Shown here piece after piece: positions 1 through 39,527 of a stretch of 64,000 nucleotides of DNA. The DNA comes from Herbidospora daliensis (GTDB taxonomy: Bacteria > Actinomycetota > Actinomycetes > Streptosporangiales > Streptosporangiaceae). The notes below the pieces were generated by a model, which saw only the letters and a program-made list of their open reading frames with translations, had not been told where the DNA came from and made no database searches. Every line of letters begins with the position of its first letter. Positions within the stretch are counted from its first letter, which is position 1. Made by a program: the position numbers and the translations under genes. The DNA is taken from positions 186,001-250,000 of the forward strand of contig NZ_BBXF01000008.1 in assembly GCF_001570585.1 (NCBI RefSeq), given 5' to 3'.

Positions 1-1
1 C

Positions 2-241
2 GACCGGGCGCACGTCGGCCCGTACGCCTCCGTCCCGCTCACGTCGGAGAACTACCCGAAGGGCAGCAAGGCCCCGATCGACCTGATGGCCCGCCTTGAG
101 CAGGGCTACCGCGAGGCCGAGGCCCGCGTCTGCCTGGTCGACAACGAGACCGAGACGCCCCGGTTCCTCACCCTCGACGAGGCCGAGCGCCTGGTCGAGA
201 CGCTGACGCAGCAGATCCGCCAGGGAAGGGGCGAAGCATGA
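2..241 (+). CDS. Partial hypothetical protein, C-terminal part
   Basis: Open from the window edge to a TGA that overlaps the next ATG (ATGA). The visible 79 residues are acidic and end with a helix reading FLTLDEAERLVETL, the kind of 'L-x-x-x-E-A' helix that closes DUF6907-type proteins such as the two nearby CPSWC proteins. Its N-terminus is outside the window. Function unknown; it probably belongs to the same operon as the gene that follows. Confidence 0.7.
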   Translation, partial: DRAHVGPYASVPLTSENYPKGSKAPIDLMARLEQGYREAEARVCLVDNETETPRFLTLDEAERLVETLTQQIRQGRGEA

Positions 242-612
242 CCGCCAAGCACACCGATTCGTGCCCGTCCTGGTGCGTCAACGGCGAGCATGGCGTCCAG
301 CCGCTCGCCGGGGACCGGATGCACGTGGTGATGGTCGACGCGCAGCCGCTGCTCACCATGGAGTTCGAGAACTGCGGTTCGGAGTGGGAGCCGTATGAGC
401 TCCTCGTCGAGATGACCCAGCACGTTCGCGAGGTTGAGGCCCGGATCGTCATCGCCTCCACGCTGCCGCTGGACAAGCCCCGCGACATGCAGCTCACCCT
501 CGACCAGGCCGAGCATCACGCCCGGCTCGTCCTGGAGCTGGTGCGCGCGGCCCGGACGAACACGCCGGTCGACTACGCCAACGTGACCGGCTCGGAGGAG
601 CAGCAGTCCTGA
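238..612 (+). CDS. DUF6907-like CPSWC protein
   Basis: 124 residues. Near the N-terminus it has SCPSWC followed by NGEHG, a Cys/His signature typical of DUF6907 proteins in actinomycetes and their mobile elements; it ends with a long helix beginning LTLDQAEHHARLVLELV. The function of the family is unknown; a metal-binding N-terminus is an inference from the Cys and His residues. Translation is coupled to the preceding gene by ATGA. A second CPSWC protein is encoded at 2665-3033 in the same element. Confidence 0.75.
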   Translation: MTAKHTDSCPSWCVNGEHGVQPLAGDRMHVVMVDAQPLLTMEFENCGSEWEPYELLVEMTQHVREVEARIVIASTLPLDKPRDMQLTLDQAEHHARLVLELVRAARTNTPVDYANVTGSEEQQS

Positions 613-624
613 GCGTGCAAGAAG

Positions 625-649
625 CCCCCGCCGACGCGATCGGCGGGGG
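625..649 (+). terminator. Rho-independent terminator
   Basis: A 10-bp perfect stem (CCCCCGCCGA at 625-634 paired with 640-649), a 5-nt loop, and a short T run immediately after. It lies 12 bases after the stop codon of the CPSWC gene and closes the upstream plus-strand transcript. Confidence 0.85.
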
Positions 650-746
650 TTTCGCCTTGCGCGGGGCCGGCTGGTCTTCGCGCTGGCGTCAACCGCGGCG
701 CCCGCTCGAGCATCTCCTGTGCATCCCGATACGCCAGGAGCCGACC

Positions 747-917
747 GTGCGACGACTCGCCCCCGCCCTCATGCTCGCCTTCGTGCTCGCCCTCGCGGGG
801 TGCGGCGACGACGAAGGGACCGCCCCGGCGGGCGGCAGCGAGGCGTGCAACTCCCCGGAGACCCTGACCAACGACGAGGCGATCTGGTGCGCCTACCAGA
901 TCGGCGAGACCTGGTGA
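747..917 (+). CDS. Small lipoprotein, candidate lysogenic-conversion gene
   Basis: 56 residues from GTG, with CAGGAG seven bases upstream. The sequence starts with two Arg, has a hydrophobic stretch (ALMLAFVLALAG) and a lipobox LALAGC, so Cys20 should be lipidated and the mature chain (about 37 residues, with two further Cys) anchored outside the membrane. It stands alone between a terminator and the GntR gene, where prophages often carry independently expressed genes. Small phage lipoproteins can act in superinfection exclusion; here that is only a suggestion. Confidence 0.7.
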   Translation: MRRLAPALMLAFVLALAGCGDDEGTAPAGGSEACNSPETLTNDEAIWCAYQIGETW

Positions 918-921
918 TGTC

Positions 922-1692
922 CTACGAGGTGGGGAGCGCCTCGCCGTAGGTCAGCGTGTAGCGCTCGGCGCTGAGCACGGACTCGGCGGTCTCGACCGGG
1001 CGGCCGTCGAGGTCGTAGTGGGTGCGCGTCAGGACGTGGACGACTGAGCCGGGCGGAACCCGGAGCGCCTCGACCTCCTCGGCGATGGCGATGCGCGCGT
1101 CAACCTGGTCGACGCAGCCCGCGATGATGACGCCGATCGAGCGGAACCGGTCGGCGATGCCGAGCAGGTTCTCACTCTTGCCGGGGATCATGACCGGCGT
1201 TCCGCCCGTGATGGCCAGCAGCTCCCACGAGACCGTCTTCTCCGACGGAACCCCGTCCACCTCGAAGAGTGACTCGGTGCGGATGACGTCGGGCTCTTCG
1301 CCGGCGGGGTCCATCCGGAGCCGTTCGCGCACCGGGCCGGGTGCGACGTCTGGCCGCGACGTGGTCCGTAGGAGGACCTGGTGGCCCTGTTCGGGGAGGT
1401 CGAAGACGGCCGATGATCCGGAGTCGGTGAGCCGGAGCGTGAAGTTCCTGACGAGGGTGCGCCTCTTGGGCCGCGCCCTGACGTACGTGCCGCTTCCGGC
1501 GCGTGCTTCGGCGAGGCCCTCGGAGACCAAGATCTGGCTCACCTTGAGGGCGACCGAGTTGGACACGCCGTACAGGCGCTGGATCTCGGGCCGGGACGGG
1601 AGCTGGTCGCCGGGTTCGAGCTCGCCAGATTCGATCTTCTCGCGTAGCTCTTCGACGATCTTTGCGTACAGGTAAGGGCGATCTTCGGTCAC
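922..1692 (-). CDS. GntR-family (HutC/UTRA) transcriptional repressor, KorSA-like
   Basis: 256 residues. Residues 5-75 form a GntR winged helix (KIVEELREKIESGELEPGDQ, then LPSRPEIQRLYGVS); the C-terminal part fits a UTRA ligand-sensing domain of the HutC subfamily, ending ESVLSAERYTLTYG. Family members bind DNA as dimers and are released by small ligands. The gene diverges from the long plus-strand operon, and the 83 bp between them carry palindromic and direct repeats that look like its operator. In pSAM2 a HutC-type regulator, KorSA, represses the transfer/replication activator; the location and the FtsK and Nudix genes downstream suggest the same role. The ligand is unknown. Confidence 0.88.
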   Translation of the reverse strand: MTEDRPYLYAKIVEELREKIESGELEPGDQLPSRPEIQRLYGVSNSVALKVSQILVSEGLAEARAGSGTYVRARPKRRTLVRNFTLRLTDSGSSAVFDLPEQGHQVLLRTTSRPDVAPGPVRERLRMDPAGEEPDVIRTESLFEVDGVPSEKTVSWELLAITGGTPVMIPGKSENLLGIADRFRSIGVIIAGCVDQVDARIAIAEEVEALRVPPGSVVHVLTRTHYDLDGRPVETAESVLSAERYTLTYGEALPTS

Positions 1693-1696
1693 AAAG

Positions 1697-1765
1697 TACA
1701 GCTTGACACCCTGTACCGTCAGCTTGCAAGCTGTAGGAGCAACACAACAGCCTGTACCGACAGCT
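1697..1765. promoter_or_regulatory. Candidate GntR operator region with direct repeat and palindrome
   Basis: Two copies of CTGTACCGWCAGCT (1711-1724 and 1752-1765, one mismatch) lie 41 bp apart, close to four helical turns. Around and inside the first copy are a perfect 12-bp palindrome AGCTTGCAAGCT (1721-1732) and an inverted pair TACAGCTTG (1697-1705) / CAAGCTGTA (1727-1735). The region separates the divergent GntR gene and the plus-strand operon. A TTGACA at 1703-1708 could be a -35 element, but no convincing -10 follows at the usual distance. Confidence 0.65.
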
Positions 1766-1775
1766 AGGCGGTTTG

Positions 1776-2126
1776 ATGTTCCCGACGTCGCTCCCCCCTA
1801 CTGCGGACTCCCCGGCGCTGGCCGCCGCGTGGGCCCGCTCCATCGCCCAAGCGGAGTTCCCGAAGTTCGCCGACGCCGCTGAGGACCTGGCCCGTGACCT
1901 CGTCTCGCAGGCCATCCCCGCGCAGCCGCCGCCCGGCGGTCACCACGTTCAGCTCCAGGTCGGCCTCACCGACGAGGGGCGGTTGCGGGTCGAGGTCCAC
2001 GCCCCGTTCGCCACCAGCCGTGGCGGTGCGGAGTGGGCCAGCCTCTACAGCCTGACCAAGTCGTTCGAGACCACCAACGGCGCCGACGGGCACCACGCCT
2101 GGGCCGAGCTCGGGGAGGCGGTGTGA
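1776..2126 (+). CDS. Hypothetical protein, first gene of the plus-strand operon
   Basis: 116 residues from ATG (a TTG three bases upstream is an alternative). N-terminal helices are followed by a beta-rich stretch (HVQLQVGLTDEGRLRVEVHAPF). I recognise no domain. It ends GTGTGA, overlapping the GTG of the next gene, so the two are translationally coupled. As the first gene after the presumed GntR operator it should be under that control. Confidence 0.6.
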   Translation: MFPTSLPPTADSPALAAAWARSIAQAEFPKFADAAEDLARDLVSQAIPAQPPPGGHHVQLQVGLTDEGRLRVEVHAPFATSRGGAEWASLYSLTKSFETTNGADGHHAWAELGEAV

Positions 2127-2410
2127 AGGCGGACGACGACGAGCTGTTCATCCCGGAGGGCAAGGCGCTCAAGGCGATCGAGTCGGCGGACATCAAGCCC
2201 GGCGACCGGGTCGTGGTCGAGCAGCTCCTCAAGGACCCGGACGCGATCGTCCCGAGCGACGCCCCCGCCTCGATCGTCGGCCGGAAGGCCCGCGTCCTGC
2301 GGGTCTCGGCGAACAAGCGGACCGCCCGGATCCAGATCGAGCAGGTGGGTTCGATCCACACGCTCGTGGCCGCCGGCCTCCGCGCGATCTCCGAGGACGA
2401 CAAGCCGTGA
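2123..2410 (+). CDS. Hypothetical protein
   Basis: 95 residues from GTG 2123, chosen because it overlaps the upstream stop by 4 bp. An acidic, helical start (KADDDELFIPEGKALKAIES) is followed by a short beta-rich region (GDRVVVEQLL, RKARVLRVSANKRTARIQIE) that could be a small barrel. I recognise no family. It sits between coupled small genes of the presumed transfer operon. Confidence 0.6.
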   Translation: MKADDDELFIPEGKALKAIESADIKPGDRVVVEQLLKDPDAIVPSDAPASIVGRKARVLRVSANKRTARIQIEQVGSIHTLVAAGLRAISEDDKP

Positions 2411-2541
2411 GCGGCCAGGAGGACGACCAGAGCGCCGCGCTGGCGACGACGAACCAGACCGGTAAGCCGCCGTTCGCGATCGATCCGAGCGAGTGGCCGA
2501 CCGAGGCCGACGCCATCGTCGACCGCTACCTGACCACCTGA
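2407..2541 (+). CDS. Small hypothetical protein (44 aa)
   Basis: A 44-residue frame starting at GTG 2407, which overlaps the preceding TGA (GTGA). It is acidic, with Trp and Pro (FAIDPSEWPTEADAIVDRYL), and continues without interruption to TGA 2539-2541. Support is the coupling arrangement and the coding-like composition only; no function can be given. Confidence 0.5.
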   Translation: MSGQEDDQSAALATTNQTGKPPFAIDPSEWPTEADAIVDRYLTT

Positions 2542-2664
2542 AGCGCCTGCCGACCACGAGCCCCCGCAGTGGAAGGCAGGCAGGGCCCGGTCCTCCGGCT
2601 ACGCAGCCAGGGACAGGAGGGCCGGGCCCCCAAGACGACGACACAGCCCCGAGAGGAGCAACAC

Positions 2665-3033
2665 GTGGACCAGAGCAGCGCGGCCGGAGGGGACACCACG
2701 GCGACGCCGAAGTCCACCGGACCGTGCCCGTCCTGGTGCGCCCGCCACGCCCACTCCGGCATGGGCGAGCAGCACCACTTCCGGATGATCGGCGGCTGGC
2801 ACGACGACAACGACGTCAGCGTCGAGCTCGTGCTTGAGCAGGAGCTCGGCGAGGGCGAGGAGCCCGTCGTCCGCGTCCTGTACGGCCCGGACTGGGCGAA
2901 GACCGAGCACGTCGACCTGACCGGCCGCGCCGCCGCCGGGCTCGCCGAGGCGCTCGCGTTGATGCCGCCGGGCAAGCTCCCCCAGTTCGCCGAGGGCCTG
3001 CGCCGCGCTGGCGCCGCACTCACCACGGGTTAG
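2665..3033 (+). CDS. DUF6907-like CPSWC protein
   Basis: 122 residues from GTG with a strong GAGAGGAG site seven bases upstream. It contains CPSWCARHAHSG followed by His-rich sequence (EQHHFRMIGGWHDD) and ends with a helix GLAEALALMPPGKLPQFAEGL. It is related in layout to the protein at 238-612. Two or three copies of this family in one element suggest a useful but unknown job. Cys and His residues could bind a metal. Confidence 0.75.
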   Translation: MDQSSAAGGDTTATPKSTGPCPSWCARHAHSGMGEQHHFRMIGGWHDDNDVSVELVLEQELGEGEEPVVRVLYGPDWAKTEHVDLTGRAAAGLAEALALMPPGKLPQFAEGLRRAGAALTTG

Positions 3034-3124
3034 CCGCCGGCTGACCCGCTGACGGCCCCCGACAGGGAATCCGACCTCCCGGCCGAGGGCCTCCCCAGAC
3101 AACCTGACGAAAGCAGGAGTCCGA

Positions 3125-3997
3125 GTGAAGACAGAGGTACACCCCAGGCCGCCCGCCGCGCCAGAGAACGCGCGTTCGGTCGAGGCGGCCGAGAGCGTGG
3201 CCACGCGCAGGGCCGCGAAGATCGTCGTCAGCGTCATCGCGATCGTCGCCGCGTACGTGTCGTTCCGCCACCAGTTCGGCCTGGCCCGGCTCGCCGGTGA
3301 CTCGGCGGAACTGGCGTGGACGCTGCCCGTCCTGATCGACGGCATGATCGCCATGGCGTCGCTGGTGATGCTCGACTCGTCTCGGCGCGGACTGTCCACG
3401 CCGTGGCTCGCCCGGGTCGCGCTGGTCCTGGGGACGGTGGCCACCCTGGTGGCGAACGTGGCCCACGGGTGGCCGGGCGGGCTCACATATCGCGTGATCA
3501 GCGGGGTGGCCCCGGTGGTCCTCGTGATCGCCGTCGAGCTGCTGATGGGGATGCTCCGTCGCTCCGTCGTCGCCCCGCCCGTCGAGGTCGTCGACCAGGC
3601 CCCGGCCGACCCGGAGCCGGTCACGGTCGAGGAACCGCCTGCTCCGGAGCCCGTCCCGAGGACGGCCGACGAGGCGGCCCGGCTCGCCTACGAGGCGTCC
3701 GTGGTCGACGGTAAGCCGATCTCCGAGCGCGGTCTGGCCAGCCAGTTCAACCTCAACCGGCACGCCGCCGGTCGTGTGATCGCTGCGGTGGTCACGGACG
3801 CGGTCCGTGCGTACTCGCTGACGCACAACGGGGAGCTCCCTCCGGCCGCCGACCTGACCGCCCGGTTCGGCATCACCGCCAAGCGAGCCACGGACCTGGT
3901 CATGGCGGCCTACGAGGTCGACCCGGCGCACGGCCCCGAGGCCGCCGACCCCGAAGAGCGGATGGTCCGGCCGGAGCTGAACGGGGCGGCGGCCTGA
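3125..3997 (+). CDS. DUF2637 membrane protein with C-terminal DNA-binding-like region
   Basis: 290 residues. The N-terminal half has about four hydrophobic segments and the DUF2637 pattern (SFRHQFGLARLAGDSAELAW, then VLIDGMIAMASLVM). A Pro/Glu-rich linker (about 155-185) leads to a soluble C-terminus with a helix-turn-helix-like stretch (SERGLASQFNLNRHAAGRVIA). DUF2637 proteins are frequently found beside FtsK-like ATPases on actinobacterial plasmids and integrative elements, as here. A role as an Spd-like or coupling partner in DNA spread is inference. The stop overlaps the next ATG (TGATG). Confidence 0.75.
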   Translation: MKTEVHPRPPAAPENARSVEAAESVATRRAAKIVVSVIAIVAAYVSFRHQFGLARLAGDSAELAWTLPVLIDGMIAMASLVMLDSSRRGLSTPWLARVALVLGTVATLVANVAHGWPGGLTYRVISGVAPVVLVIAVELLMGMLRRSVVAPPVEVVDQAPADPEPVTVEEPPAPEPVPRTADEAARLAYEASVVDGKPISERGLASQFNLNRHAAGRVIAAVVTDAVRAYSLTHNGELPPAADLTARFGITAKRATDLVMAAYEVDPAHGPEAADPEERMVRPELNGAAA

Positions 3998-4395
3998 TGA
4001 AGATCCGTGTGAAGAGCTTCGGCTTCGGCCACGGCGCGCAGCCCGAGGCCGACATGACGTTCGACGCGCGGCGCGTGCTGCGCAACCCGCACCACGACCC
4101 GGCGATGCGCGAGCTGACCGGTCTCGACTGGGCCGTCCGCGAGCACGTCGCCAAGACGCCCGGAGCCGTCGGGATCGCCGTCCACCTCGCGGTCGGCGCG
4201 CGGCACCTCGCGTGGGAGACCGGCCGGGACATCGACGTCGCGGTCGGCTGCGCCGGCGGGCGTCACCGGGCGGTCGCCCTGGCGGAGATGGTCGCGGCCG
4301 AGGTGCGCAAGCTCGGCGACTTCGAGGTGACCGTCGAGCACCTACACGTGGACCGGCCGCTGCTGCCGCTCTCGGCTCACCGGGAGGTGCGGTGA
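3997..4395 (+). CDS. RapZ C-terminal-domain protein
   Basis: 132 residues matching the C-terminal domain of RapZ: IRVKSFGFGHG at the start, FDARRVLRNPHH, an LTGLD segment, and the signature VGCAGGRHRAVALAE near residues 83-97. In E. coli RapZ this domain binds small RNA; the N-terminal ATPase half is absent here. Stand-alone versions occur on actinomycete plasmids and integrative elements. An RNA- or nucleotide-binding role is plausible but unproven. It overlaps the gene before by 1 bp and the gene after by 4 bp. Confidence 0.8.
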   Translation: MKIRVKSFGFGHGAQPEADMTFDARRVLRNPHHDPAMRELTGLDWAVREHVAKTPGAVGIAVHLAVGARHLAWETGRDIDVAVGCAGGRHRAVALAEMVAAEVRKLGDFEVTVEHLHVDRPLLPLSAHREVR

Positions 4396-4547
4396 AGCGC
4401 TGGGAGTACCACGTCGAAGTCACCCGCCCGCCCCTCGGCAAGCAGCCCCTCGACGAGCTCGGCGAAGCCGGTTGGGAGCTGGTCGCGGTCGCCATCCGCG
4501 GCGAGCACGGCAGCTTCATCTACACCTTCAAGAGGGAGTTGGCGTGA
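4392..4547 (+). CDS. DUF4177-like small protein
   Basis: 51 residues from GTG 4392 (GTGA overlap with the preceding gene; GTGA overlap again with the FtsK-like gene). The pattern WEYHVEV ... LDELGEAGWELVAV ... FIYTFKRE is that of DUF4177, a tiny alpha/beta domain of unknown function common in phages and Gram-positive bacteria. Tight coupling to the ATPase gene suggests co-production with it. Confidence 0.75.
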   Translation: MKRWEYHVEVTRPPLGKQPLDELGEAGWELVAVAIRGEHGSFIYTFKRELA

Positions 4548-6712
4548 CCGAGCGCGACCTTCGCCCTGTCCGGGACCCGGAGCAGGCGCCGCCTCTCCCC
4601 GTTCCGGCCCAGGGCGGGGAGCTCGACAGAGTCGTCTACGCCGCCGAGGTGGTCGACGACGAGGTCGAGGTCGAGGCCACCGACGAGAAGGGCCGACGTC
4701 TCCCGGCCCGGATCGTCGGTAAGGCCGCGGCGACCCGGGGGCCTGAAGACGGCCCCACCGTGGGCCGCCGGGTGCTGAGCGTCGGCGTGACGATCGCGAT
4801 GGGCTGGTTCTCCTGGCTGTTCCGGGCGGGGGACGCCGCCACGTACGGCGTCTATCGCAGGCAGATCAAGGCCGCCGAGGCGGTAGGCGACCGCGAGGCC
4901 CTGACCCACTGGCTGACGCTGAAGGACACGGCGGCGAACTCCCGGCACGCCCGGGTGATGGACCTGCCGGCCAAGGCGTTCGGGGTCGCCCGGGTGCTGG
5001 TCGGCGGGTGCCTCGGCCTGGTCGTGCTGATGGTGCTGACCGCGACGCTGGTGTGGGCGGTCGGGGCTGGCGAGTTCACTGCGGTCTTCTCGTGGGTGGC
5101 GACGGCGCTGCGCTGGTTCTTCTGGACGGTCGCGTTCCTGTCGACGCCCGCACTGATCGCCTTCCCGTTCGCGGTGCTGTTCGCCGCCTACCGGGAGGGC
5201 AGCCGCCGGGGCGCGACGCCGACATGGCTGGCCACCTCGGCTGACCTGGACATCGACATCGAGATCGACGAGACGACGATCGCTCGGGCGCTCGGCGCGC
5301 TGCGCATCCCGCAGATCACCGCGTACCTGAAGGAGGGCCTGCCGCTCCAGTTCATCGTCACGGCCCGCCGTGACGGGCGCGGTACGTACGCCGAGGTGCG
5401 GCTCCCGGCCGGTGTGACCGCCGACTCGGTCGCCCGTCGCCGCGCTCAACTGGCCACCGGCCTCTACCGGCTGGCGAAGGAGGTGTGGCCGGGGACCGGC
5501 TCCGAGGCCGGAATCTTGAAGCTGTGGATCGCGGACAAGGGCGCTCTCGCCGAGGGGGCCGGGCCGTACCCACTGCTCACCGAGGGGACGGTCGACGTCT
5601 TCGAGGGGGTGCCGCTCGGTAAGACGCTGCGCGGCGACCCGGTCACGGCTCCGCTGATGGAGCGCAACACGATCGCGGGTGGTCAGCCGGGTCAGGGCAA
5701 GTCGTCGCTCGCGCGGTGCATCTGCGCCGGGTGGATCCTCGACCCGACGGCCGAGCTGTGGATCGGCGTCCCCGACACGAACTACGACTTCGAGCTGTTC
5801 AAGCGCCGGTGCGCCCGCTACGTGATGGGCAACGAGCTCCACCACTTCAAGCAGATCCGGGACGACCTGCTCGACCTGGAAGCCGAGGTCCAGAAGCGCG
5901 GCCAACTTCTCATTGACCACGAGGAGCCGCAAGTCACGCGGAAGCTCGCCGACGCCGGGATCGGTCTGCACCCGCTGCTCTACCTGCTGGAAGAGGCGCA
6001 CCTGGCGATCCAGCACAAGAAGTACGGCAAGGAGATCTCGCAACTCCTGATCGACATCGTCCGCCTCGGCCGTAAGCGCGGCATTCACGTCATCGTCTCG
6101 ACCCAGGCGCCGACGAAGGACAGCATGCCGCGCGACGTCACGCGGAACTGCTCCAACGGCTGCGCGTTCTACGTCGGCGACCACGTCGCGAACGACGCGC
6201 TGCTCGGGCAGGGCGCCTACGCGGCCGGCCACCGGGCGACCGAGCTGATCCCGGGCGTCGACCGGGGCACGGCGGTCTGTAAGGGCATCACGGGCGAGCG
6301 GTCGGAGATCGTCCAGATCTACTTCATCTCCATCACCAAGGGTCGCGACGAGCTGACGCCCATCGTCGAGCGGTCGCTCGCGCTGCTGGAGGCGCGGGGT
6401 TCGGGAGTCCCCGGGACGGACCGCCCACAGCCGGAGCCCGAGGCACCCCGTGACCTCCTGGAGGACCTGGCGGCGGTGCTCGGCGACGAGCCGACCACGG
6501 CAGCGGACCTGCCCGCGCTGCTGGCCGCACACGCCCCCGGCTGGGCTCTGTACAAGTCGATGACCGGCGTCGGTCTCCGGGCGCTGCTCTCCGAGTCTTA
6601 CGGCGTCCGGGTGCCGTCGACCGGCAACAAGTGGCCGGTCTCCAAGGCCCTGATCCTCGACGCCCTGGCGGCCCGCCTCGACCTCGATGAGGACGAGGAG
6701 GACGGCAGTTAG
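4544..6712 (+). CDS. FtsK/SpoIIIE-type DNA translocase, TraSA/TraB-like
   Basis: 722 residues from GTG 4544. Hydrophobic segments lie at about 80-95 (weak), 151-176 and 188-216. A cytoplasmic ATPase follows with Walker A GQPGQGKS (380-387, Lys386) and Walker B LLYLLEEA (478-485), then VSTQAPTKDSMPRDV, typical of FtsK/TraB motors. The C-terminal 60 residues could form a winged helix (ALYKSMTGVGLRALLSESYG). In Streptomyces plasmids and integrative elements one such protein moves double-stranded DNA between hyphae by recognising short repeats at clt. An iteron cluster begins exactly at its stop codon. It is not a terminase, which is encoded separately at 28311-29876. Confidence 0.88.
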   Translation: MTERDLRPVRDPEQAPPLPVPAQGGELDRVVYAAEVVDDEVEVEATDEKGRRLPARIVGKAAATRGPEDGPTVGRRVLSVGVTIAMGWFSWLFRAGDAATYGVYRRQIKAAEAVGDREALTHWLTLKDTAANSRHARVMDLPAKAFGVARVLVGGCLGLVVLMVLTATLVWAVGAGEFTAVFSWVATALRWFFWTVAFLSTPALIAFPFAVLFAAYREGSRRGATPTWLATSADLDIDIEIDETTIARALGALRIPQITAYLKEGLPLQFIVTARRDGRGTYAEVRLPAGVTADSVARRRAQLATGLYRLAKEVWPGTGSEAGILKLWIADKGALAEGAGPYPLLTEGTVDVFEGVPLGKTLRGDPVTAPLMERNTIAGGQPGQGKSSLARCICAGWILDPTAELWIGVPDTNYDFELFKRRCARYVMGNELHHFKQIRDDLLDLEAEVQKRGQLLIDHEEPQVTRKLADAGIGLHPLLYLLEEAHLAIQHKKYGKEISQLLIDIVRLGRKRGIHVIVSTQAPTKDSMPRDVTRNCSNGCAFYVGDHVANDALLGQGAYAAGHRATELIPGVDRGTAVCKGITGERSEIVQIYFISITKGRDELTPIVERSLALLEARGSGVPGTDRPQPEPEAPRDLLEDLAAVLGDEPTTAADLPALLAAHAPGWALYKSMTGVGLRALLSESYGVRVPSTGNKWPVSKALILDALAARLDLDEDEEDGS

Positions 6713-6875
6713 TTAGGTCCGCCCGGTGTCCCCTGAGGCGCTCTCAGGGGCCGTTTCAGGGGCTCGCCGGGCCGGGGCTAACTCACCTAACTACCTAACT
6801 TCCCGCAGCTCAGCGGCGGTTATAGGCCGCTGATGGCTGGAGTTAGGAACCTAACTCGATCTGCTCGACCTAACT
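6707..6875. repeat. CCTAACT iteron cluster downstream of the translocase gene (candidate clt)
   Basis: AGTTAGG/CCTAACT occurs at 6711-6717 (reverse, over the TAG stop of the translocase gene), 6786-6792, 6794-6800, 6841-6847 (reverse), 6850-6856 and 6869-6875, with a shorter CTAACT at 6778-6783. Copies at 6785-6792 and 6793-6800 are perfect tandem 8-mers (ACCTAACT); 6841-6856 is an inverted pair with a 2-bp spacer. Between them is an 8-bp hairpin (6810-6817 with 6826-6833). In Streptomyces plasmids the TraB translocase binds 8-bp repeats in clt, often just after traB. A regulatory or replication role cannot be excluded. Confidence 0.75.
6730..6750 (+). terminator. Hairpin after the translocase gene
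   Basis: CCCCTGAG (6730-6737) pairs with 6743-6750 around a 5-nt loop; a second TCAGGGG at 6756-6762 offers an alternative pairing. There is no clear T run, so it may be an attenuator or RNA-stabilising structure, or part of the iteron region, not a strong terminator. Confidence 0.45.
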
Positions 6876-6894
6876 CACTCCGAAGGGACCCAGG

Positions 6895-7155
6895 ATGCCC
6901 CCCAAGACTCGCTCGACGACGGCCCGGAAACCGGCCGTCAGGAAGGCGCCGGCGAAGCGGAAGAAGGCCCGCCGCAAGATCGTGAAGGCGAGGATCACGA
7001 TCGCCCTGTTCCGCTGCAAGACGTGCAGGCGCGGCTACAACTGGCCGTTCGGCCATGTCTGCATGGTCGGCGCCACGCCCGCACAGCGCGCCGCCGCGCT
7101 GAAGAACATCGCCCTCGCCCGCAAGGCCAAGGCCCAGAAGCGGCGGTGGTGGTGA
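6895..7155 (+). CDS. Basic small protein with a Cys/His zinc-ribbon-like motif
   Basis: 86 residues. The first 45 are very rich in Lys and Arg (KAPAKRKKARRKIVKAR); then CKTCRRGYNWPFGHVCM gives a possible zinc site (CxxC...HxC), and a basic tail ends RRWW. Probably binds nucleic acid, inferred from charge. Start is ATG seven bases after GGGACCCAGG. The stop overlaps the next ATG (TGATG). Confidence 0.6.
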   Translation: MPPKTRSTTARKPAVRKAPAKRKKARRKIVKARITIALFRCKTCRRGYNWPFGHVCMVGATPAQRAAALKNIALARKAKAQKRRWW

Positions 7156-7358
7156 TGGAGACCATCGGCGTACTGCTGTTCGTCCTCATCGTCATCGCCG
7201 TCTTCTACCGGGCGACCGTGAGCAACCCGCTCAAGCGCTGCGGCCGATGCAAGGGCAAGGGCACCATCCCGAGCACCGTCCTGTCGGGCCGCTATCGGGT
7301 CTGCCCGCGCTGCACCCGCAAGGGCGAGGTCCGCGCGTGGGGCGGTGGTTCCGAATGA
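7155..7358 (+). CDS. Membrane-anchored small zinc-ribbon protein
   Basis: 67 residues: one N-terminal transmembrane helix (IGVLLFVLIVIAVFY) and a soluble part with CGRCKGKG and CPRCTRKG, a four-Cys zinc ribbon of the DnaJ-like CxxCxGxG type. Small proteins of this layout occur on actinomycete mobile elements. The role is unknown; a membrane-bound accessory of the translocase is one possibility. Coupled by overlap to both neighbours. Confidence 0.65.
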   Translation: METIGVLLFVLIVIAVFYRATVSNPLKRCGRCKGKGTIPSTVLSGRYRVCPRCTRKGEVRAWGGGSE

Positions 7359-7684
7359 CCATCGTCGCGAACGACATCACGCAGTGGCCGCCGGGCACCG
7401 TGGCCCGCTACCTGACGGTCGTCAAGGCGATCGTCACCCTGTCCGAGCACGCGGGCTGGGTCCGCCTGCCGGACGTCTTCACCGAGCACCGCGCCGAGTG
7501 CTCCGGCTGCGGCGACCACGAGACGTGGAGCTGGCGGTTCAACATGGCCGCCCACGAGGAGGGCCGCCGCCAAGACCCCCACGTCGCCGAGCTGAAGGCC
7601 AAGGGCGTGAAGCAGGGCCGCGAGTGGTCCCAGGCCCACGCCGAGAGATGCCGGGCGCTGCCCCGGCCGCAGGCCAGCCAGTAA
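7355..7684 (+). CDS. Hypothetical protein
   Basis: 109 residues from ATG 7355 (overlapping the preceding stop). Helical N-terminus (VARYLTVVKAIVTLSEHAGW), a CSGCGDHETWSWRF centre and a charged C-terminus with HAERCR. The Cys and His residues might bind a metal. No family recognised. Confidence 0.55.
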   Translation: MTIVANDITQWPPGTVARYLTVVKAIVTLSEHAGWVRLPDVFTEHRAECSGCGDHETWSWRFNMAAHEEGRRQDPHVAELKAKGVKQGREWSQAHAERCRALPRPQASQ

Positions 7685-7712
7685 CACCCCCAACCACACG
7701 AAGGAGAGCACT

Positions 7713-7925
7713 GTGCCCACGAACGAAGTCAGCGGCGGCTACACGCCCATCATGGTCGGCCGGGTGGTGGGCAAGTCCCAGCCCGACCTCGACGACGAGC
7801 AGGAAACCCCGGAGACCGAGGAGCCCAGCCCGCGCGGCAGGACCCGGAACGTCGTCACCGGGAACGCGAAGGTCGGCGTCCAGGCCGACGTCATCCACGG
7901 CGGCGTGAACGTGGTGATGTGGTGA
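7713..7925 (+). CDS. Small protein ending in an amyloid-signalling-like (RHIM/BASS-type) motif
   Basis: 70 residues from GTG, with GAAGGAGAG seven to eight bases upstream. The middle is acidic and disordered (DLDDEQETPETEEPSPRGR). The C-terminus has an N..V.G......VQA..IHGGV pattern (GVQADVIHGGVNV at about 55-67), very like the short pseudo-palindromic motif with a Val-Gln core found in actinobacterial NLR/effector pairs and related to the RHIM amyloid motif. A role in prion-like signalling, or as a decoy for a host system, is inference from this pattern alone. It overlaps the Nudix gene by 4 bp. Confidence 0.6.
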   Translation: MPTNEVSGGYTPIMVGRVVGKSQPDLDDEQETPETEEPSPRGRTRNVVTGNAKVGVQADVIHGGVNVVMW

Positions 7926-8548
7926 AGGGCCCCGAGGCGCTGCACGGCATCGACTTCAAGGAGCGGCAGGCCCGCGCCGCGATCCCCTACGACCTCGACG
8001 ACGACGGCCTTCCCCTCAACCCGGTCGAGCGGCACCTCCCCGCCGGGCGCGGCGACCTGTGGGTGTGGGGCGAGCAACGGATGGCGGACGCGGTCGTCAC
8101 CGCGACGCTCGTCCGGCCCGTGCGGAAGCTGGTCGACCCCGGGCAGCGCGTGGTGCTGATGGTCCGGCGCGGCGACGACGGCACGTGGGCGGCCCCCGGC
8201 GGCGGCATGGACCCGGGCGAGACCCCGATCGAAGCGGCCCGGCGCGAGTGCCGAGAGGAGACCGAGCTCGACCTGACCGGCGTGGACGGACAGGAGGGCG
8301 AGGCCGAGTACGTCAAGGACCCGCGCGCCGGCCTGAACGCCTGGGCGGTCTCCAACGCGTGCCGGTTCGACCTGGGCGAGGTCGAGGTGTTGCCCGTCGT
8401 CCGGGCGTCGGACGACGCCGATGAGGCCGTGTGGGTTCGCGCGGACTCCTTCGACCAGCTCCTCGACGAGCTGGCCGCTTGTGGCGGCGAGCTCTTCCCG
8501 GCCCACACGTCGTTCCTCCGGGCCGCGCTCGACGGCGTGATGGTGTAG
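7922..8548 (+). CDS. Nudix hydrolase, possible Pif-type immunity factor
   Basis: 208 residues from GTG 7922 (GTGA overlap; GTG 7919 is an alternative). The Nudix box starts near residue 94: GGGMDPGE, then RRECREETELDL, matching Gx5Ex7REUxEE with Glu in place of the usual final Gly. Flanking sequence (VVLMVRRGDDGTWAAPGG) is standard. Nudix enzymes hydrolyse nucleoside diphosphate derivatives. In pSAM2 the Nudix-motif protein Pif blocks redundant conjugal entry; here it shares an operon with the translocase, so a similar exclusion role is plausible. Substrate unknown. Confidence 0.85.
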   Translation: MKGPEALHGIDFKERQARAAIPYDLDDDGLPLNPVERHLPAGRGDLWVWGEQRMADAVVTATLVRPVRKLVDPGQRVVLMVRRGDDGTWAAPGGGMDPGETPIEAARRECREETELDLTGVDGQEGEAEYVKDPRAGLNAWAVSNACRFDLGEVEVLPVVRASDDADEAVWVRADSFDQLLDELAACGGELFPAHTSFLRAALDGVMV

Positions 8549-8550
8549 CC

Positions 8551-8688
8551 GTGGCCGACCGCACCCACCCCAACGCCCCGCCCGACAAGGACAACCCGAT
8601 CGACCACGAGGAGTGCGCCGGCCAAGGCTGCCCGGTCGACGGCGGCTCGGGCATGGTGCCCGGCTGGCTCTACACGATCGACTCCTGA
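8551..8688 (+). CDS. Small hypothetical protein (45 aa)
   Basis: 45 residues from GTG two bases after the Nudix stop. Acidic and Pro-rich, with HEECAGQGCPVDGGSG, a possible metal-binding CxxxxC. It is the last gene before a strong bidirectional terminator. No family recognised. Confidence 0.5.
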   Translation: MADRTHPNAPPDKDNPIDHEECAGQGCPVDGGSGMVPGWLYTIDS

Positions 8689-8696
8689 GCACGACA

Positions 8697-8738
8697 AAGC
8701 GCCCCCACCCCGGTCCGGAGACCAAGGTGGGGGCGCTT
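8697..8738. terminator. Bidirectional terminator between convergent blocks
   Basis: A perfect 13-bp stem (AAGCGCCCCCACC at 8697-8709 with 8726-8738) and a 16-nt loop, with A and T at the two ends so that either strand gives a terminator. It separates the plus-strand operon from the end of the minus-strand late transcript. Confidence 0.9.
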
Positions 8739-8787
8739 CGCTTTGCCCCGGGGAGAGGGCAACCGCCGCGTGAAGGCGGGGTCAGGG

Positions 8788-9156
8788 CTACCGGATGGCG
8801 GGTGCGGTCATCTGCGGGCCGGCGTGCGGCTCGACGTGGCCGCGCACGTACGCCGAGGCGAGGACGGCGACGAAGCCCATGACGCTGGCCACCTGGACGG
8901 CGGACCAGTCGAGGCCGAACGTCGCGCCGAGCGTGAGCAGCGCCTGGGCCAGGCCGAGGATCGCGGCCTGCAGCGACGAGCCGCCGTCGACCGCGCGGGT
9001 CGCCCACGCGGTGACGAAGCCGAGGACGGCCGCCGCGGCGGCGTTGACGACCGCGACGGTGGCGTCGTCCCAGTGGAGCCAGAAGGCGACGAGGAACTGA
9101 AGGGCCGCGCTGAACAGGCCGAGCAGCAGCGCGGGTTCACGGCCGAAGATCTTCAT
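8788..9156 (-). CDS. Putative holin
   Basis: 122 residues with three to four hydrophobic stretches (ALLLGLFSAALQFLVAFW; VNAAAAAVLGFVTAWA; LQAAILGLAQALLTLGATF; VASVMGFVAVLASAYV) and a short soluble tail. It lies last in the minus-strand late block, after the endolysin gene. Position, size and topology fit an actinophage holin that permeabilises the membrane; there is no sequence signature beyond that. Confidence 0.7.
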   Translation of the reverse strand: MKIFGREPALLLGLFSAALQFLVAFWLHWDDATVAVVNAAAAAVLGFVTAWATRAVDGGSSLQAAILGLAQALLTLGATFGLDWSAVQVASVMGFVAVLASAYVRGHVEPHAGPQMTAPAIR

Positions 9157-14081: not shown

Positions 14082-16817
14082 CTACAGGGCCCTGATCGCG
14101 GGCTGGAACAGCTCGACCGGCGCGGCCGAGCCGTGCGCCTTCACGACGCCGTTGACCGAGCGCGTCACCGTGAACGTCTGCGGTGAGCTGGTGCCGCTGA
14201 TCGCGGTGACGGTCATGCGCTCGCCGCCGATCACGATGTCGAACGGCATCTCGCCGGCGTCCGTCGTCCACCTCGGGCCGGACGTCGTGGCCACCGACAA
14301 CGACGTCGCCGAGCTGGTCGCCGAGCTGTTGAGCTGGGACCCGGCCGTCCCGTAGCGGCCGGTGCCGTACAGCGCCACATCCCACGGCCGGGCGGGCGAC
14401 AGGTTCGCCGTCCACAGCCAGCGGAACGAGTCGATCGTCTCCGAGTAGCCGTCGATGATCAGATCGGCGAGGCCCGGCGGGAGCCACGGCGGCAGGTTCG
14501 CGATCGTGATCCGGTCGCCCGAGTCGAGCGCCGCGACCTCCTCGATCAGGTCGGGGTTCGCCCCCAGGTCGATCGTCAGCGTCGGATACCGGGCCTCGTC
14601 CCACGCGCCGAGGTGAAGCAGCCACCCGGCCTGGTCCGCACAGTGGAGGTCCCGGGCCAGGTTGAGCGTCACCGGGGCGTCGTAGCGGCCCGCACCGAGC
14701 GGCGGGGCGAGGACGCTGTTCGGGCCGGACGTCTTCTCGGCGCGTGCTGAACCGCCGCTGCTGCGCGAGACGGTGACGTCGTTCGTCAGCTCCGAGTCGT
14801 CGTCGAGCGGCTTGAACGGCGGGCTGATGTGCCCTTGGGCGTAGTCGAGGGCGAGGCTGACCGGCTGGTTGTAGCGGCCTTGGCGGACGCCGTAGCCGTA
14901 GCCCAACTGCGTGCGGAGCTCGGTCAGAACCCCGTGGTCGGCGTCCGCCGCGTCCTGGATCAGGGTGGAGAGCGTCGCCGGGAGCTGCTCGCCCATCAGC
15001 GTGCCGGTCCCGGTGACCGCCGCGGTGATGCCGTTCTCGGCGCACAGCCGCGCGATCCTCGACCCGGCCGGCTCCCGGAGCCAGCCCCGCGTCTCGTCGG
15101 CCAGGTCGTAGATCGAGGTGACCGAGGTCTGCAGGCTGATGTGCCCGATCGCCGTGTTGGTCAGCCCTCGATCGGGAGCGGCCCAGATGGTGGTGACCCG
15201 GCCAACCGTCTGGGAGTTCGCGGTGCCCGAGGTGACGAAGCCCGCGCCGGTCACCGCCGACATCGTCGCGAACTCCCAGTTCACGTTCCCGCCGGACTGC
15301 GTCAGCCCGATCGTGATGCGCAGCAACTGGCCGTTGACGGCGTAGCTGATCGCGCCGGAGTCGACGGTCGCCCCACCGTCGGGGCTGTAGCCGAACAGCC
15401 GCAACGATCCGCCTGTGCCGTACACGAGCTCCCAGCGGACGATCGAGCCGGTCGTGATGAACCGGATGATCGGCTGACCGACCGTCGCGCCCCCGGACGG
15501 GACCGCGAGCAGCCATCTGACCTGGGTCTGCCCCGTGATCGCGTAGGCGGCGATCCGGCCGTAGAAGCAGGCGTCACCCATGACCGGGATCGGGTCGCTG
15601 GCCAGGAAGCCCGAGAACCCCGCGAGATTGGGCGTGCCTGCGATGGACATGGGCAGGCCGCCCACGCCGCTGGAGATGGACTCGGCGCGCTCGCTGTCCT
15701 CGCACGGCCAGTACGCCACCGGGGGCACCGTCGAGGTCGCCGCCGTCAGGCCGCGCCGCAGAGTCGACGAGAGCGCCGACTGGCCCTGACCGAGCCGCCG
15801 GCCGATGCCCGCGGCGGTCATGTCGACCCAGACGTCGTTGCCGGTGACGTCCCACTCCGACGGCCAGGCGGGGATCTCGCCGACGAAGCGCGTGCGCCGG
15901 TTGGTGAGGGCGCTGCCGCTGGCCACGGTCCACGTCCGCCCGGCCGCGTCGGCGAAGCTGGCGGCCGCCACGGTCTGCGCGGTGAAGTCGGGGTTGGCGA
16001 CCGCCGACCCGCCGATGCCGTTGCGGATCTCCGCCCCGTAGAACTCGCCGAGTGGCTTCAGGAAGGCGATGTTGGTCGCCCCGCCGATCCTGACCTGCGA
16101 CGTGCTGTTGAAGATGCTGGTCGTGCCCGAGGTGGTGACGACCTCTTCCAGCAGGGTCCACGAGCCGCTCAACGTGGCCGCGTAGTAGAACGCGACCGTG
16201 TAGCCGCCCGACCCGTTGCTGACGTCCAGCGTGATCCGCCACGCCTGGCGCCGGCCGGGCGGGATGGGCGGCTCGACCGAGCAGTGGGCCGACAGGGTCG
16301 CGGTGCCGTTCGCTGACCACTCGAAGTAGGGGCGGCCGTCGCGCGCCTGCATGAACCAGGACCGCTGGTTCGAGGTGGTGGTGAACTTCCCGATCAGGTC
16401 GACGGCCAGAAGCGACCCGGACGTCACCCAGTTGTCGAGCCGGGCGTCAATCCTGACGTCGATGTCGCCAGTGATGTCCAAGGCGCTGGCGTCGGGGGTC
16501 GTCACGCCGGTGTTGCCCGTTCCGCCCTGCACGTACAGGTAGGCCGCGCCTTCGTTCACCGACATCCGGACGGGCGTGTTCCGCCCGATCAGGCCATACA
16601 GAGGGCTGAGCGGGTTACGCGGCGAGTACTGCCCACCGGCGTTGTTGACCTGCAGATCCATCGCGGACGGGTCGGTCTTGTCGCCCTCGTCGCGACGCCC
16701 TCGGCTGATTGAGATCTGCCCGTTCTCGCGAAGGAGGACATCGTCGGTGATGTCCTCCCAATCGCCGTCCACGTAGATCTCGATTAGCCCGTCGAGCGGC
16801 GTGCTGGGGAAGGCCAT
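14082..16817 (-). CDS. Large minor tail protein with LamG-like domain
   Basis: 911 residues. The start (EIYVDGDWEDITDDVLLR, SISRGRRDEGDKTDPSAM) is typical of actinophage minor tail proteins that follow the tape measure. Residues about 100-270 look like a LamG/concanavalin domain (DVRIDARLDNW, YFEWSANGTAT, AWRITLDVSNG). A second similar beta region follows near 420-560. The C-terminal part (SGDRITIANLPPWLPPGLAD, GERMTVTAISG) resembles baseplate hub sequence. It overlaps the tape-measure stop by 1 bp. LamG domains bind sugars, so host-surface contact is likely. Confidence 0.85.
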   Translation of the reverse strand: MAFPSTPLDGLIEIYVDGDWEDITDDVLLRENGQISISRGRRDEGDKTDPSAMDLQVNNAGGQYSPRNPLSPLYGLIGRNTPVRMSVNEGAAYLYVQGGTGNTGVTTPDASALDITGDIDVRIDARLDNWVTSGSLLAVDLIGKFTTTSNQRSWFMQARDGRPYFEWSANGTATLSAHCSVEPPIPPGRRQAWRITLDVSNGSGGYTVAFYYAATLSGSWTLLEEVVTTSGTTSIFNSTSQVRIGGATNIAFLKPLGEFYGAEIRNGIGGSAVANPDFTAQTVAAASFADAAGRTWTVASGSALTNRRTRFVGEIPAWPSEWDVTGNDVWVDMTAAGIGRRLGQGQSALSSTLRRGLTAATSTVPPVAYWPCEDSERAESISSGVGGLPMSIAGTPNLAGFSGFLASDPIPVMGDACFYGRIAAYAITGQTQVRWLLAVPSGGATVGQPIIRFITTGSIVRWELVYGTGGSLRLFGYSPDGGATVDSGAISYAVNGQLLRITIGLTQSGGNVNWEFATMSAVTGAGFVTSGTANSQTVGRVTTIWAAPDRGLTNTAIGHISLQTSVTSIYDLADETRGWLREPAGSRIARLCAENGITAAVTGTGTLMGEQLPATLSTLIQDAADADHGVLTELRTQLGYGYGVRQGRYNQPVSLALDYAQGHISPPFKPLDDDSELTNDVTVSRSSGGSARAEKTSGPNSVLAPPLGAGRYDAPVTLNLARDLHCADQAGWLLHLGAWDEARYPTLTIDLGANPDLIEEVAALDSGDRITIANLPPWLPPGLADLIIDGYSETIDSFRWLWTANLSPARPWDVALYGTGRYGTAGSQLNSSATSSATSLSVATTSGPRWTTDAGEMPFDIVIGGERMTVTAISGTSSPQTFTVTRSVNGVVKAHGSAAPVELFQPAIRAL

Positions 16818-33264: not shown

Positions 33265-34857
33265 TCATGCCGCACCGGCCTGCTGCTGCTCGACACGGTC
33301 CACGTGGTAGTGCCACACGCCGGTACGGGACTGCTCGCCGACGAGCTTCCAGCCGGAGAAGATCCGGCCCCGACGGCTGGTCAGGAACTTGCCGAGCCCC
33401 TTCGCGGTGAACGGCCTGCCGTCGGGCTTGCTCGGGAAGACGCCGTCCCACGAGTCGTACATCTCGCCGTTGAGGTTCTCGACCCGGGCGCTGTCGAGGA
33501 GCTGCGCAGCCGTCTGGGGCTGCCGCCCGAACTTGGTGTGCCACTTGGTCAGGAACGCGATCGTGGCCGCCTCGTCGTCGTCGGCCTGCTCCATCTCGTG
33601 CCGGTTGTCCATGAACCCGTCGATGCCGTGGAAGCGGGTGAAGCCGCCCATGGTCTGGGCCCAGGCCGAGAAGTTCCGCATCTTCAGGTCACGCTCGCGC
33701 GGCGCCCCGGCCGCCATCCACGCCGCGGTGAGCACCAGCAGGGCGCGCAGCAGCTTGGCCCGGTTGGCGTCGTCGCGGAGCCACGACCACAGGTCGTCGA
33801 TCACGAAGCCCGTTCTCAGGTCGGGCCGCTCCATCTGGGGGTCGAGGCGCACCAGGACGGACCGGGACGCGATGTCCCCGCCGACGGCCACGTTGTTACC
33901 CGTGACGCACCACAGCCGGTCGTTGATCCCGTTGAACGTGGAGTTGACGCCGAGGATGCGGGAGCTGAAGTGGGTCGAGGTCAGCAGCATGGCCAGCGAG
34001 GCGTGTTCGACGGTGTCGAAGACGTCCACGTTGTCCCACGTGACCAGCGGCTCGGTGGTGTCGCGAAGGATGGCGGTGATGGACTTGGCCATCTCCTCCT
34101 CCTTGCGCGGCCAGGGGTACATGCGCCAGCCGTAGATCGAGCCGATGATCTCGGCCAGCAGCGACTTCCCCGAGCCGCGCGTGGTGGCGCTGATGACGCC
34201 GAGGGGCGCGACGCCCTGGGTGAACAGGCGCAGCAGCGGGGTCATCAGCAGGCCGACGAAGTTGGCGCGGCTCGCGGGGGAGTCGAACACGAAGTCGGCG
34301 AGCACGTAGTCGAGGAGGAACCGTCGCGCCGCCGCGATCGTGGGCAGGTCGGGCGCACCCTCGACGGGCGTGTGCGGGAAGTCCGGACGCAGGTAGAGCC
34401 GGGTCGCCGGGTCGTACCCGGGGTCCTGCAAGAAGCTGCCGTCGGCGCGGACGACGGGCGTGGTCGCCACCCCGGCCAGGGTCGGGATCCCGGACCAGAC
34501 GGGCTGCGAGAGCACGTCCTTCGCGACGGCCACCGACGGCAGACCTGAGGTCTCCTCCGGCCCCAACCGGGTGGACCGGACACGGAAGCAGGCCGAATGC
34601 CGGGCGAGCAGCGCCCGCAGGCCGTTGGCGTCAATGGGCTGGATGGCCAGGCGCGGGCCGGTGCCGTCGTCCAGGTCGACGATGCGGCTCAGGCCGCCGT
34701 TGCGGACGTACAGCTCGGGGACGATGCCGCTGTTCAGGGCGTCGCTGATGAACAGGACGGCCTTGTCCTCCAGGGTGATGTCGATGCGCCGCCGCCCTTC
34801 ATCGTCGCGGGAGCCGGGGGCGCCGTTCTCGAACAGGATGTCGTCGGCGGACTTCAC
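33265..34857 (-). CDS. Phage DNA helicase / replication ATPase
   Basis: 530 residues from GTG 34857 (GTGA overlap with prim-pol). Walker A TTRGSGKS (225-232, Lys231); a Walker B-like PLVTWDNVD (270-278); then NSTFNGINDRLWCVTGNN, a sensor-type segment typical of phage DUF927/virulence-E-like helicases that pair with prim-pol. The C-terminal region (about 430-530) may be a winged helix (KGLGKFLTSRRGRIFSGWKL). Probably unwinds DNA at the adjacent iteron array. Confidence 0.82.
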   Translation of the reverse strand: MKSADDILFENGAPGSRDDEGRRRIDITLEDKAVLFISDALNSGIVPELYVRNGGLSRIVDLDDGTGPRLAIQPIDANGLRALLARHSACFRVRSTRLGPEETSGLPSVAVAKDVLSQPVWSGIPTLAGVATTPVVRADGSFLQDPGYDPATRLYLRPDFPHTPVEGAPDLPTIAAARRFLLDYVLADFVFDSPASRANFVGLLMTPLLRLFTQGVAPLGVISATTRGSGKSLLAEIIGSIYGWRMYPWPRKEEEMAKSITAILRDTTEPLVTWDNVDVFDTVEHASLAMLLTSTHFSSRILGVNSTFNGINDRLWCVTGNNVAVGGDIASRSVLVRLDPQMERPDLRTGFVIDDLWSWLRDDANRAKLLRALLVLTAAWMAAGAPRERDLKMRNFSAWAQTMGGFTRFHGIDGFMDNRHEMEQADDDEAATIAFLTKWHTKFGRQPQTAAQLLDSARVENLNGEMYDSWDGVFPSKPDGRPFTAKGLGKFLTSRRGRIFSGWKLVGEQSRTGVWHYHVDRVEQQQAGAA

Positions 34858-39516: not shown

Positions 39517-39527
39517 GCTAGCACCCC
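39453..39527 (-). tRNA. tRNA-Lys(UUU), prophage integration site
   Basis: Minus-strand cloverleaf of 72 nt plus encoded CCA: acceptor GGGGUGC/GCGCCCC, D arm GCUC/GAGC, anticodon loop CUUUUAA (anticodon UUU), T arm CAGGG/CCCUG with UUCGAAU. The acceptor has a U5-G68 wobble and the anticodon stem a C27-U43 mismatch, perhaps because the 5' half is host-derived and the 3' half phage-derived. Confidence 0.93.
39453..39527. other. Right attachment site (att core within tRNA-Lys)
   Basis: The integrase gene runs into the 3' end of the tRNA and the host genes begin beyond its 5' end, so recombination took place in the tRNA, most likely in the anticodon loop to T-arm segment. The matching left copy must lie outside the window, before base 1. 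Core length cannot be fixed without it. Confidence 0.8.

Follow-up and report, generated by a model that had tools for sequence, protein, structure and literature searches.

Can a temperate phage of an actinomycete also carry the machinery with which conjugative elements move DNA? This question is raised by a 64,000-nucleotide stretch (hereafter, the window) of the Herbidospora daliensis genome (8.52 Mb; assembly GCF_001570585.1, contig NZ_BBXF01000008.1, positions 186,001 to 250,000, i.e. C8:186001-250000), in which a prophage contains an arm, at 922-8688, resembling the transfer region of actinomycete integrative and conjugative elements (AICEs). An original prediction, made from the sequence alone, had read this arm as a pSAM2-like transfer, repression and immunity module. 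The gene set is real and is part of a recurrent family, found in phages and AICEs, with a conserved site that resembles a cis-acting locus of transfer (clt). Two features are central to this finding.

4544-6712, plus strand: FtsK/TraB-type membrane DNA translocase of 722 amino acids (aa), assigned by predicted fold, hydrophobic segments and homologues
6707-6875, plus strand: clt-like cis site, starting at the translocase stop codon, in which eight TAACT/AGTTA copies, direct and inverted, surround a GCAGCTCA box

A membrane FtsK-type translocase followed by short repeats had been predicted, and both were confirmed. The AlphaFold model of the translocase (mean predicted local distance difference test (pLDDT) score, 84.6; predicted template modelling score, 0.61) matched the FtsK motor 2IUT at E 2e-15 in Foldseek, as well as the TcpA coupling protein of pCW3, and the protein contains a Walker A motif and two hydrophobic segments (152-170 and 196-214), i.e. 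the FtsK-type motor fold and N-terminal membrane segments that are expected of a TraB/TraSA protein. It shares 28.8% identity with TraB of pSVH1 (9e-30). No Pfam family matched at E 0.1, and in the proposed profile comparison with TraB the NCBIfam model plasmid_TraB matched weakly (5.7e-4). The C-terminal domain is modelled as helices and a short hairpin (pLDDT 89). The gene is under purifying selection, with ratios of nonsynonymous to synonymous substitution rates of 0.12-0.31 across eight close viral translocase pairs, 0.22 in the pair L129/L130 (both AICE) and 0.14 in the pair L134/L135 (one AICE and one unclassified).

The repeats are concentrated behind the translocase gene. Eight of the nine TAACT/AGTTA pentamers present in window positions 1-39500 lie within 6707-6875, and in 200 Markov simulations the maximum within 180 bp was three. 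CCTAACT occurs seven times in the window (1.0 expected), and the direct pair CTAACT-N0-4-CCTAACT at the site is unique in the 8.5-Mb genome. The site is conserved across AICEs and phages as TAACY copies around a GCAGGTCA box, and the window, an AICE of Streptosporangium saharense (locus L127) and the majority of the phage sites shown share a similar order: first an inverted copy at the stop codon, then direct TAACY copies, the GCAGGTCA-type box, an inverted-direct pair and a final copy. Translocase C-termini were classed as A or B by two profile hidden Markov models, whose 14 seeds are included among the counted rows, and the repeats were examined in 134 of the 139 rows of a quick tree described below (132 typed and two untyped; five outside the repeat examination). 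The 68 class A C-termini are followed by TAACY in 61 cases, by AGGGA in none and by other sequences in seven, and the 64 class B C-termini by AGGGA in 31 cases, by TAACY in none and by other sequences in 33, on a background of 0.19 TAACY and 0.29 AGGGA per 275 bp. The repeat type tracks the C-terminal type without cross-over in the 132 typed homologues. The 33 class B loci with other sequences include many Amycolatopsis-type loci, the C-termini of which are odd, as well as the CTAG-type AICEs of congeners. Of the 68 class A sites, 54 (20 of 24 labelled AICE and 20 of 25 labelled phage) contain a loosely defined GCAG box pattern, compared with 16 of the 64 class B sites.

These comparisons indicate that the repeats are a conserved cis site positioned like clt, and the C-terminal domain of the translocase may be the part that recognizes them. 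A finer residue-repeat code is hinted at by two cases from different lineages: where D precedes the conserved N of the predicted wing (L071/L074 and G011), the copies are mostly TAAT, and the relatives L072 and G010 have wholly or mostly TAAC. Counter-cases are L134, L135 and L145, which have mixed sites despite a standard C-terminus. AICE-like elements of this genome and genus (L048 and L050-L053) carry a CTAGC/CTAGA repeat at the same spot behind the Tra gene.

Clustering of the translocase with phage-specific proteins had been named in advance as the outcome that would speak against the prediction. Among the best 80 of 168 genome-contig matches, the closest translocase (67-69%) is that of the S. 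saharense AICE, which also has int, prim-pol, helicase, SpdB-like and Nudix genes, and the window protein and this translocase are sisters, with a support of 100/97, in a careful tree of 53 rows. L076, a record with terminase and portal, lies inside a 12-row set that is otherwise all AICE (96/97). A phage-only lineage, with 17 phage rows on one side of 23 AICE rows, was rejected in the approximately unbiased test (p 0.0001), four of the 17 phage labels being assigned by lysin/tail profiles only. In the quick tree (139 rows; from 135 main-cluster translocase loci, nine duplicates and four sequences <450 aa were dropped), the phage label needs 20 changes; its labels include one viral record (L125) labelled AICE by rule and five loci (L071, L072, L074, L078 and L083) labelled phage by local lysin/tail profiles only (G016, G017, G019, G023 and G027, with no phrog_9 or phrog_12 match), four of these five being among the 17 phage rows above. 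The translocase groups with those of conjugative elements, not in a phage-only clade, and the trees, which are compatible with either direction, indicate repeated exchange of the module between AICEs and phages.

A search for other siphoprophages with the same arm was also proposed at the outset, and further viral records with the translocase were found. In IMG/VR, alignment A1 finds 59 loci, 50 of which were tested further (the other nine comprise seven records fetched before and two of this genome). Terminase (phrog_9) was detected in 33 of the 50 viral records and portal (phrog_12) in 29; 37 have either or both and 13 neither. Two of the seven earlier records match the window terminase. A second siphoprophage in the same genome carries the arm at C4 ~79-86 kb (L045-L046), with structural genes beside it on the other strand; the structural genes are different, and the arm proteins are 58% (Nudix), 53% (70-aa protein), 34% (translocase), 39% (DUF2637) and 39% (GntR) identical to those of the window. 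A prophage of Nonomuraea gerenzanensis (L220 and L221), sharing a replication protein (53%) and a tail protein (47%) with the window, retains DUF2637 and a site that looks complete, but of the translocase gene only the 3' end is left. The window translocase also matches 37 plasmid records, all at <60% identity.

The 168 matches in genome contigs were limited to the best 80, which correspond to 79 loci. Prim-pol and no structural gene by profiles were found within the fetched flank of 29 of these, 19 of which are ordered SpdB-like, Tra, prim-pol, helicase and integrase; the AICE label of the 29 is provisional because the structural profiles were few. Fourteen of the 25 genomes behind 26 such loci, including S. 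saharense, gave no terminase at E 1e-6 in a search that covered phrog_9 only. In alignment A2, 13 of the 40 members, including the window protein, gave no PF01580 match at E 0.01. Ghinet et al. based their survey of Tra proteins on PF01580, according to an excerpt of that paper (PMC3218068), so this translocase branch may be under-counted.

The remaining features of the element are as follows.

8788-29741, minus strand: siphophage block encoding endolysin, tail, capsid, protease, portal and terminase large subunit (PHROGs on eight proteins)
33265-34857, minus strand: replication protein, kin of pWTY27 RepA (35.5%, 1e-86) and of the proteins of RepPP-type AICEs
34854-35765, minus strand: prim-pol primase/polymerase (Pfam Prim-Pol, 1.1e-31)
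37978-39516, plus strand: tyrosine integrase, the end of which overlaps the att site (Pfam Phage_integrase, 1.2e-16)
39453-39498, no strand: att core of 46 bp in the tRNA-Lys gene (identical copy at C8:185192-185237)

The prophage is 40.3 kb in length, with its left end at C8:185192, 809 bases beyond the left edge of the window, and its right end at window position 39498; because identical 46-bp att cores flank both ends, the arm lies inside the phage. The core corresponds to the 3'-terminal 46 bases of the tRNA-Lys gene (39453-39527), which is on the strand opposite to the integrase gene. The integrase gene runs into the tRNA-Lys gene and its frame crosses the att core; its last codons should therefore differ between the integrated and excised forms. 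PHROGs scores are clear for terminase, portal, protease, tape measure, major tail protein and endolysin, and weak for the capsid (1.7e-4); the terminase has matches in 1,916 phage records (best, 45%). The co-occurrence of the arm with a siphophage structural and packaging set in one element, as predicted, was thus confirmed, the capsid assignment being weak. Terminase, portal, protease, capsid, tape measure, lysis genes, integrase and att sites are those of a temperate siphophage. An integrase, prim-pol-type replication genes and Tra within one att-bounded element are also the attributes of an AICE, except that an AICE has no virion gene set; because the structural set is present, the element was filed as a phage with an AICE-type module. 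Derivation of the entire non-structural part from an AICE was considered and rejected: the replication protein is 39% identical to its homologue in the S. saharense AICE (helicase/RepA-like) and 53% to the Nonomuraea prophage protein, the best relative found.

Several other observations concern this region. In the tail-region protein at 14082-16817, residues 651-816 match a PHROG annotated as phosphodiesterase. The tRNA-Lys att core has six copies (C8:143528, 170847, 185182 and 225430; C3:1048088 and 1063837), which suggests tandem elements at this site. To the left of the phage are a further integrase-like gene (C8:183984-184916) and a 1360-aa open frame of the FtsK_SpoIIIE family, perhaps EccC. 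An AICE of a congener was considered as an occupant of the same tRNA-Lys gene and rejected; it adjoins tRNA-Glu/Asp/Phe, ~5 kb away. An Rfam scan of window positions 1-9000 gave no matches.

In the arm itself, the translocase and its site are accompanied by the following features.

922-1692, minus strand: GntR/UTRA (HutC-type) regulator in a KorSA/TraR-like position, divergent from the arm (Pfam GntR, 7.7e-16; UTRA, 6.1e-10)
1693-1775, no strand: divergent promoter region with two direct copies of CTGTACCG(T/A)CAGCT, 89% identical and 41 bp apart
3197-3997, plus strand: DUF2637 membrane protein in an SpdB-like position (Pfam DUF2637, 4.8e-16)
7713-7925, plus strand: 70-aa protein, a recurring partner of the Nudix gene (53% to the second prophage, 40% to the S. 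saharense AICE)
7919-8548, plus strand: Nudix-family protein, a candidate Pif-like factor (Pfam NUDIX, 2e-15)

All predicted families were found at the predicted places, with two corrections: the regulator, assigned earlier to the plus strand, is encoded on the minus strand, and the Nudix gene starts at 7919. In the arrangement typical of KorSA/TraR-type regulators, a GntR/HutC gene is transcribed away from the transfer genes and the promoter region between them contains repeats, as is the case here; the protein is 29.6% identical to GntR of pSVH1 (3e-14). Part of PMC8584621 reports that KorSA binds its own promoter. The regulator promoter with its two direct repeats is accordingly the place expected for a KorSA-like operator, and these repeats are a candidate operator of the GntR protein, which may repress the transfer genes. 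The DUF2637 protein has four hydrophobic 19-mers, and its homologues are located upstream of the translocase in both phages and AICEs.

The Nudix box appears largely intact when set by eye against the consensus. The protein is 46.5% identical to the copy in the S. saharense AICE, 58% to the second-prophage copy, and 47 and 44% to copies on Streptosporangiaceae plasmids. At E 1e-5, relatives were found on 44 plasmid records, all actinomycete, and in none of the phage records. In pPR2 of Planobispora rosea, the Nudix gene is downstream of genes for DUF2637 and an ATP-binding protein, and in pSROS01 (L218) the closest plasmid relative is part of a longer protein and adjoins a gene annotated as a Pycsar effector. 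By analogy with Pif, the protein might block the entry of sibling elements.

A transfer-type module was rightly predicted, but pSAM2 is not its nearest relative; prim-pol (RepPP-type) AICEs are nearer, and the gene order is that of pSVH1 and pWTY27. The S. saharense AICE shares with the window the sister translocase, the site behind it, the SpdB-like, Nudix and 70-aa proteins, and the helicase/RepA-like protein (39%). The prim-pol AICEs differ in having no detected phage structural genes and in having their replication genes near the translocase and integrase genes on one strand. pSVH1 and pWTY27 show the same order, i.e. GntR on the minus strand, small open reading frames, SpdB2 or DUF2637, Tra and a transfer site directly behind tra, but they are plasmids without a virion set (one pWTY27 gene is annotated as phage capsid) and have other repeat motifs. 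As a positive control, five of the seven GACCCGGA motifs of pSVH1 lie within ~115 bp behind traB. Excerpts of PMC3583192 state that the pWTY27 translocase binds clt, which covers 16 bp of tra and the following 159 bp, that transfer depends on this site, and that pSVH1 TraB reads its repeats via helix alpha-3 of a C-terminal winged helix. pSAM2 is alike by family, as judged from descriptions and not from sequence, in its HutC-type regulator (KorSA), FtsK-type Tra (TraSA) and Nudix protein (Pif), but it uses RepSA, and no clt is described for it in the portion of PMC9513070 consulted.

Phage-like replicons with transfer genes provide a further comparison. Zhong is said to have described pZL12 in 2010 as a 90-kb extrachromosomal plasmid-phage with phage genes and a tra region on one replicon, a precedent for that combination. 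An excerpt of PMC3583192 also cites pZL12 as a Streptomyces plasmid-phage. Likened here by description and not by sequence, pZL12 differs in being extrachromosomal, whereas the present element is a tRNA-integrated 40-kb siphoprophage. pPaSha2 of Pseudonocardia alni (L066 and L206) is a closed 41.9-kb circle on which terminase, portal, protease, capsid, holin, DUF2637 and FtsK-type Tra genes are annotated; its Tra is 31.8% identical to the window translocase, and a GCAGGTCA box and GCTAC copies are present ~290 bp behind Tra, but the translocase is on a distant branch and there is no TAACY cluster directly behind it. Although deposited as a plasmid, pPaSha2 looks like a whole phage.

Taking homology, motor fold, gene order, the conserved site and its link to C-terminal type, the exchange seen in the tree, and purifying selection together, the arm likely works like a TraB/clt system. 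We consider it probable that the arm is a TraB/clt-type module for double-stranded DNA transfer, of the kind found in prim-pol AICEs, pSVH1 and pWTY27, which was built into a temperate siphophage and would pump phage DNA between compartments or hyphae. Upon release of the GntR repressor, the DUF2637 protein and the translocase would be made, and the translocase would assemble in the membrane; its C-terminal domain would recognize the repeats that follow the translocase gene on phage DNA that has been excised or is replicating. The translocase would then pump this DNA through the membranes or septa of the hyphae, into adjacent compartments or mated hyphae. The Nudix protein may block the entry of sibling copies. 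The element could then be dually mobile, spreading by virions and by hyphal transfer.

Several results weigh against this reading. The best NCBIfam match of the translocase, also weak, is to the anti-phage protein HerA (3.1e-4), slightly ahead of plasmid_TraB, and PADLOC gave weak matches to mad8 (3.2e-7) and HerA. The pWTY27 translocase had no BLASTP match to the window translocase at E 0.01, and pSVH1 SpdB2 had no match to the DUF2637 profile at E 0.01. The C-terminal domain model had no match in PDB below E 0.001, the best hits being mostly winged helices at E 0.29 or higher. Because the site is inherited with the gene, only two independent switches (2/2, p 0.5) underlie the class/repeat link on the tree. 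One phage (G009) has CAACT-like copies without a typical site. Finally, the translocase gene is not needed for prophage persistence, since the N. gerenzanensis prophage has lost nearly all of it.

Among the alternatives, the one we take most seriously, though we regard it as unlikely, is that the module acts only within one mycelium, carrying excised phage DNA across septa or to spore compartments without mating. Spd proteins and TraB act in the intramycelial spread of plasmids, most hosts of the genome-contig translocase loci belong to filamentous genera (L128 is a short contig of a Nocardioides metagenome-assembled genome), and a diverged version of the module occurs in one closed circular phage record in plasmid form. 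In AICEs, however, an excerpt of PMC3218068 credits this module with mating transfer, and the present data fit either use. That the repeats are instead an operator or a replication origin is a little less probable still. The inverted and direct copies, the presence of another gene group downstream, and the iteron reported for the prim-pol plasmid pWTY27 (PMC3583192, in part) would suit such a role, but in this phage the site adjoins the translocase gene and is 26 kb away from the prim-pol and RepA-like genes, its repeat type follows the translocase C-terminus, and the proven sites of pSVH1 and pWTY27 are at the same place.

A phage-specific or defence function of the translocase, such as superinfection exclusion, DNA entry or packaging, appears very improbable. 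It would accord with the HerA-type profile matches and with the FtsK-like proteins without known use that occur in Streptomyces phage records; when two diverged family members were compared with phage records at E 0.001, FtsK-like proteins were the only matches, in 7 and 30 records (mostly Streptomyces phages). These proteins, however, match at only 25-31% identity over no more than 41% of the query, those of Streptomyces phages at 25-27% over 25-41%, none of 50,697 phage records matches the window translocase at E 1e-5, and homologues with the same site behind them are present in AICEs without detected phage genes. We give least credence of all to the arm being a passive leftover captured from an AICE; the large translocase deletion in the related Nonomuraea prophage is what such decay would produce, but purifying selection in the eight viral pairs and retention of the gene with its repeats in many diverged viral records argue for a function.

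The transfer reading can be extended, at slightly less than an even chance in our judgement, to a widespread group of temperate phages of filamentous actinomycetes. Phages of this group would be able to spread without virions, their lysogens pumping excised DNA through TraB-type pores to neighbouring hyphae; one interchangeable translocase-site code would be common to phages and AICEs, so that an AICE could move a phage in trans, and the Nonomuraea prophage, which has lost the translocase and kept the site, would be a mobilizable phage. No TraB/clt module in a prophage was described in the open-access literature searched by title and opening of the abstract, a scope outside which most subscription papers fall. 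The portions covered of an actinobacterial prophage survey (PMC10023795) gave no match for conjugat, TraB or translocase, and FtsK, TraB and AICE had no match in those of a Streptomyces prophage paper (PMC11302927). A Mycolicibacterium survey (PMC8190616), in the part consulted, places TraB-like translocases in plasmids and one AICE, and none in a prophage.

As far as its genes can tell, this prophage may spread without virus particles, by means of the DNA pump, the control gene and the probable loading site of conjugative elements. If this is true, it would link two pathways of horizontal transfer that are regarded as distinct in actinomycetes, and phages would have a concrete way to cross the mycelium.

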